IMG/VR virus record: IMGVR_UViG_3300030098_002565
Location: 1-22,522 of that record
DNA length: 22,522 nt
Direction: 5' to 3' (one strand)
Origin: a virus
Position 1 is the first letter of the stretch, and every line of letters begins with the position of its first letter. The notes under the pieces are model-generated. The model had not been told where the DNA came from. It did not search any database and was given only the letters and a program-made list of their open reading frames with translations. Positions 3,123-15,274 of the stretch are shown here, piece after piece. The position numbers and the translations under genes were made by a program.

Positions 3123-4780
3123 ACCAACTGGAAGACTTCAGGAACTACCTATTCTTATGCTGGAAACACCTGAATCTTCCAGATCCTACACCAGTACAGT
3201 ATGACATAGCTGACTATCTACAAAACTGCCCTAAACGTGCAGTGATAGAAGCATTTAGAGGAGTGGGTAAATCCTACATCACCAGTGCTTATGTCACATG
3301 GAGACTTCTCAAAGATCCTGAAGCAAAAGTGCTGGTGGTATCTGCAAGTAAGATCAGAGCAGACGACTTTAGTACATTTACCCAGAGATTGATCTCAGAA
3401 CTGCCTGTGCTGCATCATTTACGATCACGGGAGGGACAGAGGCAGTCTAAAGTTTCTTTCGATGTCGGCCCTTCTAAGGCTTCTCACAGCCCTTCTGTAA
3501 AAAGTGTAGGAATTACAGGTCAACTTTCAGGGTCCAGAGCAGACCTGATCGTAGCAGACGATGTGGAAGTACCTAATAACAGTATGACTCAGACCATGAG
3601 AGACAAGCTCAGTGAGTCTGTGAAGGAGTTTGATGCTGTACTGAAACCAGATGGAACCATAGTATACTTAGGTACACCACAAACTGAAATGTCCCTTTAT
3701 GAAACATTACCAGAAAGAGGGTACGAGACACGTATCTGGCCTAGTAGATACCCCACACACCAGCAGCTTCTTAGGTATAATAATCGTCTAGCACCTTTTA
3801 TACAGGAGAAACTGGAAAAGGAAAACAAAGAAGGGGAACCTACAGATCCACTTAGGTTTGATGATGAGGATCTTCTTGAACGTGAACTCTCGTATGGTCG
3901 TTCTGGGTTTAACCTACAGTTTCAACTGGACACCTCACTGTCAGATGCAGATCGATACCCATTGAAACTAAGTGATCTCATTATTATGGCTTGTGATGAC
4001 ACAACAGCACCTGAAAAACCTGTGTGGAGTCGTGATGGTAATAATAAGATTACAGACCTGCCGAATGTAGGACTTCCTGGGGATTCATATTACGGTCCTG
4101 AGACAAAGTTAGGAGATTGGCTACCGTATAGTGGCAGTGTCATGGCAGTAGACCCTAGTGGGCGAGGAAAAGACGAATGTGGGTATGCTGTGGTTAAAAT
4201 GTTGAACGGATACCTCTATGTCACAGAATGCGGTGGGATACAGGGGGGATACAATGAAAGTAATCTCAGGGCATTGTCAGTCATAGCAAAACGTAATGCT
4301 GTCAATATGATTGTTATTGAAAGTAACTTTGGAGATGGAATGTTCATGGAACTGTGGAAACCAGTTCTCTTGAAAATCTATCAGGTGACAATGGAAGAGA
4401 TACGTTCTAATGTACAAAAAGAAAGACGTATATGTGACACAATTGAACCTGTGATGAATTCTCATAGGTTGGTGATTGATCCTAAAGTTATTGAAAATGA
4501 CTATAAGACTGTGCAACATTATCCTGCTGAGTTGCAGTGTAAATACATGCTGATGCACCAGATGACTAGGATCACCAGGGATAAAGGTGCTTTGACACAT
4601 GATGATAGGTTAGATGCACTGGCTATGGCAGTAAAATACTGGGTAGACCAAATGGCAGCAGATGCTGACGTTAAAATACAGGACAGGAGAGATGAACTGT
4701 TTGATATGGAGATAGAAAAGTTTGTAGCAGGTGTAATGGGCAAGGAACACGTTGAAAATAAACAGCTTACGTGGTTTTAG
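3119..4780 (+). CDS. terminase large subunit (T7 gp19-like)
   Basis: A 553-residue packaging motor that threads concatemeric DNA into the prohead using ATP and cuts it to length. The ATPase Walker A is AFRGVGKS (45-52) and the Walker B LIVADDVE (143-150). The C-terminal RNase H-like nuclease shows VMAVDPSGRGKDE with Asp345, MIVIESNFGDG with Glu401, and HDDRLDALAMAVKYW near residue 495, supplying the acidic metal ligands. Length and motif order match T7 gp19-like terminases. It is the last gene before a non-coding region with a terminator candidate, the usual place in T7-like genomes. The ATG overlaps the preceding stop. Confidence 0.96.
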   Translation: MNQLEDFRNYLFLCWKHLNLPDPTPVQYDIADYLQNCPKRAVIEAFRGVGKSYITSAYVTWRLLKDPEAKVLVVSASKIRADDFSTFTQRLISELPVLHHLRSREGQRQSKVSFDVGPSKASHSPSVKSVGITGQLSGSRADLIVADDVEVPNNSMTQTMRDKLSESVKEFDAVLKPDGTIVYLGTPQTEMSLYETLPERGYETRIWPSRYPTHQQLLRYNNRLAPFIQEKLEKENKEGEPTDPLRFDDEDLLERELSYGRSGFNLQFQLDTSLSDADRYPLKLSDLIIMACDDTTAPEKPVWSRDGNNKITDLPNVGLPGDSYYGPETKLGDWLPYSGSVMAVDPSGRGKDECGYAVVKMLNGYLYVTECGGIQGGYNESNLRALSVIAKRNAVNMIVIESNFGDGMFMELWKPVLLKIYQVTMEEIRSNVQKERRICDTIEPVMNSHRLVIDPKVIENDYKTVQHYPAELQCKYMLMHQMTRITRDKGALTHDDRLDALAMAVKYWVDQMAADADVKIQDRRDELFDMEIEKFVAGVMGKEHVENKQLTWF

Positions 4781-4782
4781 GT

Positions 4783-4805
4783 ATGAAAGGGCCATTATTA
4801 ACTAT
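4783..4805 (+). repeat. 23-base direct repeat, copy 1 (candidate phage RNA polymerase promoter)
   Basis: These 23 bases (starting ATGAAAGGGCC and ending TTAACTAT) are identical to 15252-15274, and neither flank is conserved. Copy 1 starts two bases after the terminase stop, where T7 has the phiOR promoter. Copy 2 lies just after the RNA polymerase gene, where T7 has class II promoters. T7-family promoters are of similar length and also contain ACTAT near the start site. It can also be read as a short hydrophobic ORF to 4857, but the identity at DNA level favours a non-coding site. Confidence 0.55.
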
Positions 4806-5191: not shown

Positions 5192-5200
5192 TCTTTTTTC

Positions 5201-5229
5201 TTGACCATTCACTGCACTTGTGAGATCAT
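5201..5229 (+). promoter_or_regulatory. early host-type promoter 1
   Basis: TTGACC (5201-5206), 17 bases, GATCAT (5224-5229), with the extended -10 TGTGA just before the -10. It is the first of six promoters of one pattern. No gene of credible size follows before promoter 2, so it may simply add to transcription of the early block. The spacer holds the dyad GCAC-TT-GTGA. Confidence 0.75.
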
Positions 5230-5280
5230 CTTCCTAGTTCAATTGATATGAATCATTTTTAATTCATTTTAATTTTTTAC

Positions 5281-5309
5281 TTGACATATTAAATCATTTG
5301 TGAGATCAT
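5281..5309 (+). promoter_or_regulatory. early host-type promoter 2
   Basis: TTGACA (5281-5286), 17 bases, GATCAT (5304-5309), with TGTGA before the -10. The expected transcription start is about base 5316, at or next to the ATG at 5317, so the transcript could be leaderless. Confidence 0.8.
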
Positions 5310-5316
5310 ATTAAAC

Positions 5317-5400
5317 ATGAAACGAAAGCACGGCGAGCTACTGATCGATTTCAGACCGACCGAGAAAGTTTCTTCTATATATAATATGAATAAACAGTGA
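5317..5400 (+). CDS. 27-residue early peptide candidate
   Basis: The ORF from ATG 5317 to TGA 5398-5400 encodes MKRKHGELLIDFRPTEKVSS and seven more residues. Its ATG lies eight bases after the -10 of promoter 2, so translation would be from a leaderless or nearly leaderless message. There is no Shine-Dalgarno. It has no recognised motif, and the only support is position between two strong promoters in a region where each promoter precedes a small gene. Confidence 0.35.
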   Translation: MKRKHGELLIDFRPTEKVSSIYNMNKQ

Positions 5401-5413
5401 TTGAAAAAAAGTC

Positions 5414-5442
5414 TTGACAAATTAAATCGAATGTGAGATAAT
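5414..5442 (+). promoter_or_regulatory. early host-type promoter 3
   Basis: TTGACA (5414-5419), exactly 17 bases, GATAAT (5437-5442), with the TGTGA extended -10. It drives the ORF at 5481-5669 with a leader of about 30 bases. Confidence 0.85.
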
Positions 5443-5480
5443 TCAATCAGTGAGTTAAAACAGTAACATTGAGAAAGCGT

Positions 5481-5669
5481 ATGAATCTCAAAGATAGGTT
5501 CTCTGCTTTAATAGATGCTAAAGAGCATTTATTAATAGCTAAAAGAACAATTCAAAAACACAGATTCAATTTCAACAAAGAAGAAGAAGAAGAGCTTTGT
5601 ATGAAAGTTGAAGAGTGCTTGAAATTGTTCAATCAGTACACAGTGAAAACTGTAAAAGAAAACGCTTGA
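5481..5669 (+). CDS. small helical early protein of unknown function
   Basis: A 62-residue, basic, probably helical protein (MNLKDRFSALIDAKEHLLIAKRTIQKHRFNFNKEEEEELCMKVEECL...). I chose ATG 5481, preceded by GAGAAAG three bases upstream; a TTG at 5469 would add four residues. The stop TGA (5667-5669) lies inside the TTGACA -35 box of promoter 4. Small proteins in this place in T7-like phages often act on host enzymes or defences, but nothing in this sequence identifies a target. Confidence 0.7.
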   Translation: MNLKDRFSALIDAKEHLLIAKRTIQKHRFNFNKEEEEELCMKVEECLKLFNQYTVKTVKENA

Positions 5670-5694
5670 CAATTAATCCTAGATATGAGATAAT
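5666..5694 (+). promoter_or_regulatory. early host-type promoter 4
   Basis: TTGACA (5666-5671), 17 bases, GATAAT (5689-5694), preceded by TATGA. The -35 contains the stop codon of the preceding gene. Only six bases separate the -10 from ATG 5701, so the transcript should begin at or beside the start codon. Confidence 0.85.
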
Positions 5695-5700
5695 CTTATC

Positions 5701-5871
5701 ATGGACAATAAAGAAATAAGACTTGCAAAGCTCAAAAGAGCTTTCAAGACTTGGAAAGCAAAAGAAGATAGGATCAATGAGTCCTATATTATTGACTATG
5801 AATCACTTCCAACGGATTTGATTCAAGATAATCAAGATGATTTGATTGACTATCTGCCAAATTTTGCTTGA
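5701..5871 (+). CDS. 56-residue early protein, probably from a leaderless message
   Basis: The ORF MDNKEIRLAKLKRAFKTWKA...PTDLIQDNQDDLIDYLPNFA has a basic helical N-terminus and an acidic C-terminus. ATG 5701 is six bases after the -10 of promoter 4, which leaves no room for a ribosome binding site, so a leaderless transcript is the likely reading. Its stop TGA (5869-5871) falls inside the -35 box of promoter 5, as with its neighbours. No family recognised. Confidence 0.65.
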   Translation: MDNKEIRLAKLKRAFKTWKAKEDRINESYIIDYESLPTDLIQDNQDDLIDYLPNFA

Positions 5872-5896
5872 CATTTCAACCTGGATGTGAGATAAT
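5868..5896 (+). promoter_or_regulatory. early host-type promoter 5
   Basis: TTGACA (5868-5873), 17 bases, GATAAT (5891-5896), with ATGTGA before the -10. The upstream gene's TGA is part of the -35. It drives 5926-6276 with a leader of about 23 bases containing AGAGACAGA. Confidence 0.85.
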
Positions 5897-5925
5897 ATCA
5901 CATACAGTTAAAACAGAGACAGAAC

Positions 5926-6276
5926 ATGACAGAACAAACTTATAATGTTCTGCCTGTTCCAAGCTCAAAAGGTGTGATTAAAACACAGACATTCCGTGAT
6001 ACTAGGATTGAACCTGTGTTGAATGTGAAAGCATTCATGAATTTTAATCACAATGAGGAATGGAAAAAAGCCATTGATCGTAATGGTAAGAAGTCCAGAG
6101 CAAAAGGAACAGAGCAGAAAAAACCTAGATCCATTCGCAGGAATGGTGAAACTATTGTGATCCAAGCGGTCACAGTAGAAAATGACAAGACTGTGCCTAA
6201 ATGGGAACGTGAAGGATACGAGTCTTATAATGACTATATCAGATGTCGAGTCCATAGAGGAAAATATAAGTCTTGA
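5926..6276 (+). CDS. basic early protein of unknown function
   Basis: A 116-residue protein starting MTEQTYNVLPVPSSKGVIKT. The centre is strongly basic (NGKKSRAKGTEQKKPRSIRRNG) and the C-terminus ends PKWEREGYESYNDYIRCRVHRGKYKS. The basic patch suggests contact with nucleic acid. The stop TGA (6274-6276) lies within the TTGACA of promoter 6. With its own strong host-type promoter it should be among the first and most abundant phage products. I recognise no family. Confidence 0.75.
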   Translation: MTEQTYNVLPVPSSKGVIKTQTFRDTRIEPVLNVKAFMNFNHNEEWKKAIDRNGKKSRAKGTEQKKPRSIRRNGETIVIQAVTVENDKTVPKWEREGYESYNDYIRCRVHRGKYKS

Positions 6277-6301
6277 CATATTGCATCACTTGTGAGATAA
6301 T
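6273..6301 (+). promoter_or_regulatory. early host-type promoter 6
   Basis: TTGACA (6273-6278), 17 bases, GATAAT (6296-6301), with TTGTGA before the -10 and the dyad TCAC-TT-GTGA over the spacer. It is the last full promoter of the array and would drive the long run of small genes starting at 6342. Confidence 0.85.
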
Positions 6302-6341
6302 CTTCTCATAGTGATGATAACATTCAAATCTGAAAGGTTCT

Positions 6342-11223: not shown

Positions 11224-11571
11224 ATGGAACAGTACAATGAACTTAAAAAGCTTAAGCGTGTGCTTAACCGTTTTCAAGAGCTTGATATGGAAATGCAGAT
11301 TCCTACGATACTTATATTGTTAGAAGCTGCTATGCAAGACCCTAAGTATCCTAAGTCTGTTAAGGCTTTAGGTGCATTAGCAGGTCAAAAGTCTGGTAGT
11401 GCATCACGTAATGTGATGGCATACTGTGAACGTAACCGTGTTAAAGATAACGGTCATGGTCTTCTCAAGACTGAGGAGAATCCAGAGTTCAGAGTAGAGA
11501 AGTTAGTCAGTATGACACCAAAAGGTGACTTATTCGTTCAATCTCTTGTGGATATATTGAATGAGCATTAG
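11224..11571 (+). CDS. putative winged-helix DNA-binding regulator
   Basis: A 115-residue protein with the order expected of a MarR-like winged helix: helices (MQIPTILILLEAAMQ), a likely recognition part (KSVKALGALAGQKSGSASRNVMAYCERN), and a wing-like turn (GHGLLKTEENPEFRVEKLVSMTPKGDLFVQ). The final 'V.MTPKG..' resembles the 'L T.KG' end of MarR wings. It overlaps the integrase start by 11 bases, so regulator and integrase are co-transcribed, a common arrangement when the regulator controls integration or the lysogenic state. The CTCAC-NN-GTGAG dyads at several promoters are possible targets, but that link is untested. The fold call is from pattern only. Confidence 0.55.
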   Translation: MEQYNELKKLKRVLNRFQELDMEMQIPTILILLEAAMQDPKYPKSVKALGALAGQKSGSASRNVMAYCERNRVKDNGHGLLKTEENPEFRVEKLVSMTPKGDLFVQSLVDILNEH

Positions 11572-12613
11572 AAAGCGTGGTAACTCATTTAGAGCAGAGA
11601 TCACATTCAAAGGTCAGCGTTATAATGCTTCCTTTCCCAATCATAGTGAAGCACAGTTTTGGGAACAGGACATGCTCTTTAAATTACGAAACGGTGTAGA
11701 CGTTACACTGAAGAAGGATGTATGGACTCTTAGTGAGGGTTTCAGTAAAACCTATCAACTTGAGTGGGCCAATACACGTGGAGAAAAAACTCAACGTATC
11801 AATGGCAAGCAGTTGATGGATTACTTCGGGCCGAATACCCTTCTTGACTCAATCGACACTGAAAGTGTTCTTGAGTTTAAACTGTATTGTAAATCAGAAA
11901 AGAAAAACTCTGATGCAACAGTCAATAGAAAGTACTCTTGTCTTAGTAAGATATTTTCTATTGCTGAACAATATAAGAAATGTAACCAGAAACCATCGTT
12001 TATCTGGGAATCAGAACCTGATGGAAAGATCCGTTGGTTAACCTGGGAAGAGGAGGATCAGTACCTTCTTTACTTTGAGGATAACCAACAGATCAAAGAC
12101 ATCATAATGTTGGGATGTGATACTGGTATGAGAGCAGGTGAAATGTTAAGTGTACCTTTCACTGATTATCAGAATGGAAAAGTTAACATTTGGGTTAATA
12201 AAAATGATAAACCTAGATCAGTACCTCTAACACCTAGAGTCCTTGAGATGATAGGTAGAAGACAGATGCAAGATCCTTATGCTACTACTCCATTTAGTTA
12301 TTCGTATTCATGGATTCGTAAATTGATCAAAAAAGCATCTGAAGATCTACAGTATCCAGATGTTACTATTCACACTTTACGTCACACTTTTGCTTCACGT
12401 TTAGTGCAAGCAGGAAGACCTATTTCCAACATCCAAGAATTGATGGGACACAAAACTTCTGCCATGACACAGAGGTATGCTCACCTTGCACCTGATCACG
12501 GTACAGAAGACATAAGTGTACTGGTAAATCGTGGCGTTGAAATGGCGAAATCAGGCGTAAAAATGGCGGAAAATTACGCCAACATTCAAAAAGCTGAATA
12601 CGTAACCCATTGA
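11561..12613 (+). CDS. int: tyrosine integrase
   Basis: A 350-residue tyrosine recombinase that would insert the phage at a tRNA gene and help excise it. Catalytic residues are in order: Arg191 (DTGMRAGEM), Lys214 (WVNKNDKPRSVPL), His271 and Arg274 (HTLRHTFASRLV), His297 (LMGHKTSAMTQ) and the nucleophile Tyr306 (RYAHLAP). The N-terminal part holds an AP2-like arm-binding region (RKRGNSFRAEITFKGQRYNAS) and a core-binding SAM-like domain at about 60-140. The ATG lies 11 bases inside the regulator gene. The tRNA-like attP follows ten bases after its stop, the usual place next to int. All active residues are present, so it should be functional. Confidence 0.95.
   Translation: MSIRKRGNSFRAEITFKGQRYNASFPNHSEAQFWEQDMLFKLRNGVDVTLKKDVWTLSEGFSKTYQLEWANTRGEKTQRINGKQLMDYFGPNTLLDSIDTESVLEFKLYCKSEKKNSDATVNRKYSCLSKIFSIAEQYKKCNQKPSFIWESEPDGKIRWLTWEEEDQYLLYFEDNQQIKDIIMLGCDTGMRAGEMLSVPFTDYQNGKVNIWVNKNDKPRSVPLTPRVLEMIGRRQMQDPYATTPFSYSYSWIRKLIKKASEDLQYPDVTIHTLRHTFASRLVQAGRPISNIQELMGHKTSAMTQRYAHLAPDHGTEDISVLVNRGVEMAKSGVKMAENYANIQKAEYVTH
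12541..12580. repeat. repeats flanking attP, candidate integrase arm sites
   Basis: Inside the 3' end of int, GGCGTAA (12554-12560) and its inverse TTACGCC (12574-12580) form a 13-base-spaced inverted repeat, and AATGGCG(A/G)AAA occurs twice (12541, 12563). On the other side of the tRNA-like core, GGCGTAAAATGGCG recurs at 12768-12781. Repeats on both sides of a core site are what arm-type integrase sites or excisionase sites look like. They may also be chance in an AT-rich coding end. Confidence 0.4.
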
Positions 12614-12622
12614 TATTACTAA

Positions 12623-12666
12623 GGAGAGATGGCCGAGTGGTCGAAGGCGGTAGACTCGAAATCTAC
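12623..12666 (+). other. attP core: 5' half of a tRNA-Ser(CGA) gene
   Basis: 44 bases read as the 5' half of a serine tRNA: acceptor strand GGAGAGA, D-arm with GCCGAGTGG, then anticodon stem GTAGA/TCTAC around loop CTCGAAA, giving anticodon CGA. Sequence then departs into AT-rich DNA; no variable arm, T-arm or acceptor 3' strand follows, so it is not a working tRNA. Its place ten bases after int marks it as the phage attachment site, with the host tRNA-Ser(CGA) gene as the likely attB. After integration the phage would supply the 5' half of the rebuilt tRNA gene. Confidence 0.85.
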
Positions 12667-12740
12667 ACTTATTAATTCCACACATAAGATTATAGCTAAA
12701 TGATTGAATCTATTAAAGGTACTGAAGACATAAATCTATT

Positions 12741-12757
12741 CTCACACGTGAGATAAT
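12741..12757 (+). promoter_or_regulatory. promoter-like extended -10 and dyad before the RNA polymerase gene
   Basis: CTCAC-AC-GTGAG (12741-12752) is a near palindrome whose right half runs into GTGAGATAAT, the -10 pattern of the early array (GATAAT 12752-12757). No -35 box is present at 17 bases. It lies 19 bases before ATG 12776. It could be a host-type promoter that is activated or repressed through the dyad and controls the phage RNA polymerase. Confidence 0.5.
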
Positions 12758-12775
12758 AATTGACCCTGGCGTAAA

Positions 12776-15226
12776 ATGGCGAAATTGGAAACTCTTGAAG
12801 AAAAGCAGTTAAGCCTTGAAGAAGGCATGGTAAACTATGGGATTAAGAAGTACAGAAAGCAGGTAAGAGAAGCTCAACAGAAGGGTACTGAAAGTACATC
12901 TTTGCACGGCATTATGCTCATGAAACATAGTGTAGATGCAGTGGAAAAGAAACTCGGAAAGTTTCTCAAAGAATCGTTTTCTGGTGAAGTAGGAAAGAAA
13001 CATCATGTAGCATCTTTTTTAGTGCAATTAGACACTGATGTAGCATCCTACATAGCACTTAAATTATCTATTGATGGTATTAGCTATAGGAAAAATTTTA
13101 CTGCTGTGGCATCTAAAATAGGACAGGCAATTGAGGATCAGATTAAGTTTAAAATATGGGAAGATCACGATAGAAAGACCTTTAACTTTCTAAAAGAAAC
13201 TTTATCCAAAAAGACATCATCAAGACACTTTAAAAGGTACGGACTAATAAGAAAATGTAAGTCCCTTATTGAAGTAGAAAACTTAGATTTCTGGAGTGTC
13301 AAAGAAAGAACTCATGTTGGATCTAAGATGCTTGATTTAGTAGTTCTTGCTACTGGTTTATTGAAAATCCAGGTAATGACGAGAGCAAGAAATAAAAGAG
13401 AGTTATGGATATTACCAACAGAAAAATGTGTAGAATGGATTAATCTAGTAAACCAAAGAGGAGAAGTACTTGGTCCTGCATATAAACCTATGATTACACC
13501 ACCTAAGTACTGGACTAATTTCAGTAATGGTGGTTACTTGAGTCACAGAATACCTTTTGTGAAGGTGCGTAACAAAGTAGTGATGGAGGATCTTGAGAAG
13601 TTAGATTATGGAGTTGAGTACCAGTGTGTAAATGCTTTACAAAACACAAAATGGAAAATTAATAAGCCTGTCTATGATGCACAGGTTTATGCATGGGAAA
13701 ATAGAATTGAGCTAGGTTCACTTCCTACTAAAGAATCAGTTGTGATACCTCCTGCACCAGTTCCACGTGACATGAAAAAGTCGGATATGGGTCAGGAAAC
13801 TTTTGAGAAATTTATTGATTGGAAGGTAGCAGCATCTGAGATTTATGCAGAGAACGTAAGGAGAACCAGTAAGGTTATCCAGTTCATGAGGACAATAAAA
13901 ATTGCAGAAGAATATTCAAAGTATAACGAATTTTACTTTCCATATAACTGCGATTTTAGAGGACGTAAATATACAATTCCTGCTTTCCTATCTCCACAAG
14001 GTCCAGAGTACAGTAAAGCATTACTTACATTTTCAGAAGGTAAACCTATAGAGACACAGGAGCAGGAAGATTGGCTTGCTATACACGGAGCAAACTGTGC
14101 AGGAGTGGATAAGGTATCCTTTTATGATCGCATCAAATTTGTAAGGGATAACAATGATGCAATCATACAGTCGGCCCAGAACGGACTTAATTGCGAGTTT
14201 TGGCAGAAAATGGATGATCCTTGGTTGTTTTACGCATTTTGCCATGAATGGGCAGAGTACAAAAGACATGGAAAAGGATACCTATCTTCACTTCCTATAG
14301 CCCTGGATGGATCTAACAATGGACTTCAACATTATAGTGCAATGTTACGTTGTCCAGTTGGAGGTAAAGCTACAAACTTAACTTCAGAAAACATTCCACA
14401 AGATATTTATCAAGATGTTGCGGATGAAACTCTTATTGAAGTAAAGAAACTAGCTGATCAAGGAGATCCTACAGCAAAACTATGGGTAGACTCAGGACTT
14501 ATCAACAGGAAAATGACAAAACGTCCTGTGATGGTAGTTCCGTATGGTGGAACTCTTTACAGTTGTCGAAACTACATAGAAGACTATGTACGAGACATGT
14601 TTTATAAGGGATATAAAAACCCTTGGCAGGGTCAGCCCTTGTACAAACCTATAAATTGGTTATCTCAACATGTCTGGGAAGCAATTGGAAAAGTTGTAGT
14701 TTCAGCAAGAGAAGCAATGGGATGGATAAGAGGAGTAGCAAGAGATCTATCTAATAATAACACTCCTTTAATATGGAAAACCCCTACTGATTTTGTAGTT
14801 TATCAACAGTACCCAAACATAAAAAAACATAGGATAAAGACTACTATTGATGGAAACCTAGTCAGACCAACATTAAACACAGAAGACGATAGAACTATAG
14901 ACAGGACACGTGCGGTAAATGGGTCAGCCCCAAACTTTGTACACGCATTAGATGCTTCTGCCTTGACAAATACCGTCTACATGTGCAATAATGACGGAAT
15001 TGATTCATTTTGCATGATTCACGACTCCTATGGAACTCATGCAACCAACACTCCTCTACTTGCAAAACGCTTGAGAGAAGCATTTGTAAATCTCTACAAG
15101 CAGTATGATGTATTGGAGGATTTTCGCCAATCGGCCCTTGAGGTATTAGATGAAGTTCCAGATCCTCCGAAGAAGGGAAATTTGGATCTTGATCAGATCA
15201 TGGAGTCTAAGTATTTTTTTGCATAA
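12776..15226 (+). CDS. single-subunit T7-like DNA-directed RNA polymerase
   Basis: An 816-residue T7-type RNA polymerase that transcribes phage genes from its own promoters. Catalytic landmarks: Asp511 in IALDGSNNGLQHYSAM (motif A), Arg578, Lys582 and Tyr590 in NRKMTKRPVMVVPYGG (motif B, matching T7 Arg627, Lys631 and Tyr639 in spacing), and Asp750 in MIHDSYGTH (motif C). CDFRGRKYTIPAFLSPQG and SAPNFVHALDASAL are further family blocks. Length is slightly below T7's 883 residues, the difference lying mainly in the N-terminal third. It follows attP, so integration would separate it from int. The ATG lies behind the GTGAGATAAT element. Confidence 0.96.
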   Translation: MAKLETLEEKQLSLEEGMVNYGIKKYRKQVREAQQKGTESTSLHGIMLMKHSVDAVEKKLGKFLKESFSGEVGKKHHVASFLVQLDTDVASYIALKLSIDGISYRKNFTAVASKIGQAIEDQIKFKIWEDHDRKTFNFLKETLSKKTSSRHFKRYGLIRKCKSLIEVENLDFWSVKERTHVGSKMLDLVVLATGLLKIQVMTRARNKRELWILPTEKCVEWINLVNQRGEVLGPAYKPMITPPKYWTNFSNGGYLSHRIPFVKVRNKVVMEDLEKLDYGVEYQCVNALQNTKWKINKPVYDAQVYAWENRIELGSLPTKESVVIPPAPVPRDMKKSDMGQETFEKFIDWKVAASEIYAENVRRTSKVIQFMRTIKIAEEYSKYNEFYFPYNCDFRGRKYTIPAFLSPQGPEYSKALLTFSEGKPIETQEQEDWLAIHGANCAGVDKVSFYDRIKFVRDNNDAIIQSAQNGLNCEFWQKMDDPWLFYAFCHEWAEYKRHGKGYLSSLPIALDGSNNGLQHYSAMLRCPVGGKATNLTSENIPQDIYQDVADETLIEVKKLADQGDPTAKLWVDSGLINRKMTKRPVMVVPYGGTLYSCRNYIEDYVRDMFYKGYKNPWQGQPLYKPINWLSQHVWEAIGKVVVSAREAMGWIRGVARDLSNNNTPLIWKTPTDFVVYQQYPNIKKHRIKTTIDGNLVRPTLNTEDDRTIDRTRAVNGSAPNFVHALDASALTNTVYMCNNDGIDSFCMIHDSYGTHATNTPLLAKRLREAFVNLYKQYDVLEDFRQSALEVLDEVPDPPKKGNLDLDQIMESKYFFA

Positions 15227-15237
15227 ATTCAATCACT

Positions 15238-15248
15238 TGTGAGATAAT
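15238..15248 (+). promoter_or_regulatory. extended -10 element after the RNA polymerase gene
   Basis: TGTGAGATAAT is identical to the extended -10 of early promoters 3, 5 and 6, with TCAC-TT-GTGA over it. The -35 position (TGCATA) is not recognisable. It is directly followed by the 23-base repeat, so two kinds of signal are stacked in the 53-base gap. Confidence 0.45.
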
Positions 15249-15251
15249 ACC

Positions 15252-15274
15252 ATGAAAGGGCCATTATTAACTAT
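15252..15274 (+). repeat. 23-base direct repeat, copy 2 (candidate phage RNA polymerase promoter)
   Basis: Identical over 23 bases to 4783-4805. It lies between the RNA polymerase gene and the replication genes, where T7 has its first class II promoters. A reading from its ATG gives only 14 residues and shares just seven with the reading from copy 1, so a non-coding role is favoured. Confidence 0.55.

Follow-up and report, generated by a model that had tools for sequence, protein, structure and literature searches.

What is the first half of a transfer RNA gene doing between the integrase and RNA polymerase genes of a phage? The window analyzed here, the first 22,522 bases of an IMG/VR virus record of 47.6 kb, contains such a fragment at 12623-12666, and a sequence-only reading had taken it for the phage attachment site (attP). 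We find that the fragment is real and conserved and very probably is such a site, one whose design is already known but whose target, tRNA-Ser(CGA), is new.

The Half-tRNA and Its Neighboring Genes

The fragment lies in a four-part module, with a MarR-like gene before a tyrosine integrase gene (int), which stands directly upstream of the 44-bp tRNA 5' half, and a T7-like RNA polymerase (RNAP) gene downstream, all on one strand:

11224..11571, plus strand: MarR-like winged-helix regulator and candidate repressor whose gene overlaps the beginning of int (transcriptional regulator family phrog_9665, E = 5.9e-15)
11561..12613, plus strand: tyrosine integrase, 350 aa (PF00589, E = 9.5e-22; PF13102; phrog_1, E = 1.8e-53)
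12623..12666, plus strand: very probable attP common core, the 5' half of tRNA-Ser(CGA) (44/44 match to host-type tRNA genes; 41-43 bases kept in two relatives)
12776..15226, plus strand: T7-like single-subunit RNAP, 816 aa (PF00940, E = 2.1e-101; phrog_414, E = 1.2e-240)

The half-tRNA, GGAGAGATGGCCGAGTGGTCGAAGGCGGTAGACTCGAAATCTAC, consists of the acceptor 5' strand, the D arm and the complete anticodon arm. It begins 9 bp past the int stop, and some 110 nt separate it from the RNAP start. A single copy occurs in the window, on the plus strand, with none expected or seen in shuffled sequences. All 44 bases are identical to tRNA-Ser(CGA) genes of two bacterial metagenome-assembled genomes (MAGs), one on a Geobacteraceae contig (L001) and the other on a contig labelled "Proteobacteria" (L002). 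The identity ends with the anticodon stem and is already lost at the base that opens the variable arm. The match, its stopping point and the order and strand of the flanking genes are thus just as the sequence-only reading had described them, and its interpretation as an attP, at which the phage would contribute the 5' half and the host the 3' half of a rebuilt tRNA, is very probable.

A complete tRNA was detected neither in the window by ARAGORN nor elsewhere in the 47.6-kb record, and cmscan gave a tRNA match from 12623 that remained below threshold (26.6 bits versus a cut-off of 29). These results bear on tRNA-dependent lysogeny, where a short core suffices and the phage's own tRNA gene replaces the destroyed host tRNA. 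Such lysogeny has been described for mycobacteriophages (PMC10865867), replacement of a lost host tRNA has already been noted for a T7-like Fonsibacter prophage with its own tRNA-Leu (PMC6811365), and candidates occur among the relatives of the present phage. However, the core here is 44 bp long instead of about 10 bp, the modelled attR rebuilds the tRNA, and a record that holds no complete tRNA gene already contradicts this explanation, which we regard as extremely improbable.

Conservation in Related Phages

Two related phages, L003 (IMGVR 3300021197_000969) and L004 (3300030376_002881), hold the same half-tRNA in the same place. Their integrases are 66% and 75% identical, respectively, to that of the window and keep the R..HTLRH..RY motifs, and their surrounding DNA is about 71-75% identical to the window. 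The half-tRNA itself is kept over 43 contiguous bases in L003 and 41 in L004, and past the half the identity drops to background. Conservation also covers a short leader:

12603..12620, plus strand: 18-bp leader TAACCCATTGATATTACT, just before the half-tRNA and shared without a mismatch by the window, L003 and L004 (by alignment)

The leader is the same in all three phages although the neighboring int 3' ends differ widely. L003 additionally contains a gene fragment of a Na+/phosphate cotransporter (PF02690) at L003:11135-11569.

Putative Integrase Arm Sites

The core is flanked on both sides by repeats with the placement of arm-type binding sites:

12532..12581, plus strand: putative P-arm integrase-binding repeats, inside the int 3' end (from unit positions; same-phage arm match score of 22)
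12767..12786, plus strand: putative P'-arm integrase-binding repeats, TGGCGTAAAATGGCGAAATT, extending over the start codon of RNAP (from unit positions and arm matching)

The P-arm units comprise four GGCG at 12533, 12544, 12554 and 12565 and an inverted CGCC at 12577, with a spacing of about 11 bp. The repeat type differs from phage to phage, being GGCGTAAAAATGGCG in the window, TGGTGTGATTTGGTGTAA in L004 and TGGGACAGATTTGGGACAGA in L003. Local alignment of the upstream against the downstream flank within each of the three phages gave scores of 22 (window), 21 and 16, while flanks compared between phages scored 11-14; shuffled flanks had means of about 10 (10.2 for the window) and maxima of 12-14 (14 for the window). 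A longest-shared-word test was significant for L003 and the window (0 and 3 of 1000 shuffles), whereas the L004 repeat was not significant by this test and stood above the null by local alignment. Such a pattern, in which the two flanks of one phage carry matching repeats and different phages carry different ones, is expected of integrase arm-type sites. In a fourth relative, L005, the whole site is gone (4600-4720), and int continues from a GGGACAGAT repeat without interruption into the sequence found beyond the downstream repeat of the relatives, as if the DNA between the two arm repeats had been lost by recombination between them.

The edge of the half and its flanking repeats also allow an assessment of whether the fragment is merely the relic of a complete phage tRNA-Ser gene without a role in integration. 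tRNA genes are frequent in phages, and a complete tRNA-Leu stands beside int in several T7-like relatives; those complete tRNAs, however, are on the opposite strand and mostly upstream of int. A relic would also be hard to reconcile with three diverged phages whose halves are strongly conserved and then break off at nearly the same base (41, 43 and 44), and with repeats on either side that match within each phage. We therefore consider a relic very unlikely.

Proposed Integration Reaction

It is highly probable that the 44 bases are the attP common core of a T7-like (Autographiviridae) phage whose integrase uses the flanking arms and recombines the site with a host tRNA-Ser(CGA) gene, the tRNA being rebuilt at the int end. 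The tyrosine integrase would bind the arm repeats on both sides, at 12532-12581 in the int 3' end and at 12767-12786 over the RNAP start, and would recombine attP with the host tRNA-Ser(CGA) gene. Strand exchange would probably occur in the anticodon loop, where we place the crossover because the identity common to all three phages ends just past the loop. The RNAP side of the prophage would then consist of the host flank, the displaced host 5' half and phage DNA, and the int side of the phage flank and phage 5' half followed by the host 3' half, which would restore tRNA-Ser. As had been predicted, int and the RNAP gene would come to lie at opposite prophage ends, which follows from the gene order. 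When junctions were constructed in silico with the tRNA of either MAG, ARAGORN recognized an intact tRNA-Ser(CGA) only at the int side (attR) and none in attL or attP. What can be read directly from the sequence is the exact half with its boundary and conservation, the covariation of the arms, the lack of a complete phage tRNA and the gene order; integration itself, the exact crossover and expression of the rebuilt tRNA are inferred, as would be any formation of stable lysogens.

Transcription around the Site

The earlier proposal that the rebuilt tRNA would be transcribed from phage DNA after int holds for its position, since in the modelled int-side junction ARAGORN places the tRNA directly downstream of int sequence; the phage promoter that it calls for was not found, and promoter-like sites near the int 3' end occur at chance level. 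A candidate promoter was identified on the other side of the core:

12740..12757, plus strand: candidate early RNAP promoter with an extended -10, TGAGATAAT, at 12748-12757, the -10 motif being as in the phage's TTGAC-N17-TGTGAGATAAT promoters

The latter are a family of repeated host-type promoters, TTGAC-N17-TGTGAGATAAT, at window positions 5194-6304 (5.2-6.3 kb), and the -10 part of the family also appears at 12748, before RNAP, and at 15238, before the gene at 15252. The candidate RNAP promoter is present in L004 and degenerate in L003. A palindrome, TCTCA-CACG-TGAGA, covers its -10 at window positions 12740-12753 and has the form TCTCA-CTAA-TGAGA in L003; it is a possible operator for the MarR-like repressor. 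Separately, an exact 23-nt repeat, ATGAAAGGGCCATTATTAACTAT, occurs at window positions 4783-4805 and 15252-15274. No intrinsic terminator was found between the half-tRNA and RNAP. As the candidate promoter lies between these two, RNAP would keep its own promoter in the prophage.

The half-tRNA might instead act at the RNA level within the transcript of int and RNAP, serving as a leader, a terminator or a decoy and, for example, controlling RNAP, with integration being secondary. Its location some 110 nt before RNAP would allow this, and it would be transcribed if int reads through. However, the RNA of the int-RNAP spacer folds no better than shuffled sequences (z = +1.39), and conservation tracks exact tRNA identity up to the anticodon arm, as in the attP of the cyanophages P-SSP7 and S-TIP37, making such a role exceedingly improbable.

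A further possibility accepts the attachment site and concerns its consequences. Since the 5' half comes from the phage, integration would bring the promoter and leader of the host tRNA-Ser gene to a position immediately before RNAP (about 110 nt away), and the rebuilt tRNA would rely on int-side transcription. The polymerase would be wired to host growth-rate control and the supply of tRNA-Ser(CGA) tied to int transcription. If true, this wiring might be part of the reason that T7-like phages, although they integrate, seldom persist as lysogens. We hold it to be doubtful and keep it as a minor reading, given the candidate RNAP promoter between attP and RNAP and the apparent terminators, seen by eye or annotation, in the attP-RNAP gap of P-SSP7, P-SSP3, S-TIP37 and LUZ100.

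Search for the Host

In order to identify host genes with this half, the GTDB species genomes (about 85,000) were scanned for an exact match to 39 of the 44 bases. The scan returned only two genes, the tRNA-Ser(CGA) genes of L001 and L002, so that matching host-type genes do exist; neither genome is labelled as SAR11, and the SAR11 host suggested earlier found no support. Near-matching halves with up to three mismatches were present in 21 of 379 genomes sampled from the phylum of L002, all 21 in its class list, and exact halves in the phylum and class samples were those of L002 and L001 only. An integrase search of the two exact-match MAGs gave distant generic integrases only, and an RNAP search of 71 genomes of the L002 host's class, run without a positive control, gave no match. 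The proposed search for prophage junctions yielded none, nor did we find a host with both tRNA-Ser(CGA) and the phage. The relevance of the two MAGs as hosts is uncertain. In 2013, tRNA fragments of 39-46 bp beside the integrases of pelagiphages and cyanophages served for host assignment (PMC3861242), and a lone tRNA half supports a broad host guess only, a caution also voiced in that work.

The large terminase of the phage is closest, at 60-63%, to those of Roseobacter phages. The window also contains adjacent genes for an A-type Fe-S carrier (467-823, PF01521) and an IscU/NifU-type scaffold (823-1200, PF01592), types reported from marine phages (PMC5332604), and a tree of IscU might point to the host.

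Comparison with Known Systems

Phages that target tRNA genes mostly carry the tRNA 3' half. The sequence-only reading had set the present phage against this rule, which is correct in general; the 5' half is not exceptional here, being common within the T7-like int-RNAP module. Like canonical temperate phages of this type, the window phage has a tyrosine integrase and a common core inside a tRNA gene that would be rebuilt on integration. Canonical phages carry the 3' half and leave the host promoter driving the tRNA, whereas the core of the window is the 5' half only.

The closest analogues are T7-like cyanophages, whose 39-bp attP motifs equal the first half of tRNA-Leu and for which integration was demonstrated by PCR (PMC8776855). 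Integration occurs with the P-SSP7/S-TIP37 layout and, in S-TIP37, requires both int and attP (PMC8776855); these close analogues integrate without forming stable lysogens. We confirmed the same layout in the sequences of P-SSP7 and S-TIP37, namely a MarR-like or small DNA-binding gene, a tyrosine int, a tRNA 5' half of about 40 bp and a T7-like RNAP gene on one strand. Their core is the exact first half of the host tRNA-Leu, whereas that of the window is tRNA-Ser(CGA), which likewise sets it apart from cyanophage attP groups I-IV, with cores identical to cyanobacterial tRNA-Leu. The window integrase is only distantly related to theirs, and P-SSP7, when put through the same alignment test, did not show strong direct repeats like those around the window core.

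Altogether, tRNA 5' halves were found in eight database T7-like phages (P-SSP7, S-TIP37, P-SSP3, S-CBP1, S-SRP01, HTVC109P, HTVC120P and HTVC121P). The three pelagiphages among them share a tRNA 5' half within the int-RNAP gap but differ in their targets, which, read from sequence, are Leu(TAA) in HTVC109P, Arg(TCT) in HTVC120P and Cys(GCA) in HTVC121P. In HTVC121P (L043:2398-2668) the tRNA-Cys half is on the strand opposite int, which would reverse the orientation of the rebuilt tRNA.

A second group, HTVC200P (L013), HTVC119P (L014), LUZ100 (L016), YIMV22061 (L025) and S28C10 (L044), shares the regulator-int-core-RNAP module with a core at the tRNA anticodon loop; the MarR gene of HTVC200P matches phrog_9665 too, at 1.2e-27. 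These phages differ in having a core of 8-11 bp and no half-tRNA, together with a complete tRNA-Leu(TAA) near int on the other strand, and on these sequence features they are candidates for tRNA-dependent lysogeny. For LUZ100, its authors proposed imprecise excision. Pasto resembles the phages with 8-11 nt cores, and RHEph01 and RHEph21 carry a tRNA-Leu(TAG) with a less clear core. Two ways of preserving the function of the host tRNA thus occur among relatives, a half-tRNA core and a short core with a complete spare tRNA.

The 5'-half design is already known; new are tRNA-Ser(CGA) as its target, of which we found no report in the accessible literature, and the covariation of the arms. With this locus, the 5'-half attachment strategy known from T7-like phages now includes a serine tRNA and a group that has no cultured members, and the arms that match within each phage are evidence of integrase arm sites varying in concert. 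The locus also raises a question of design, namely why such a phage would give up the host tRNA promoter and set it before its own RNAP.
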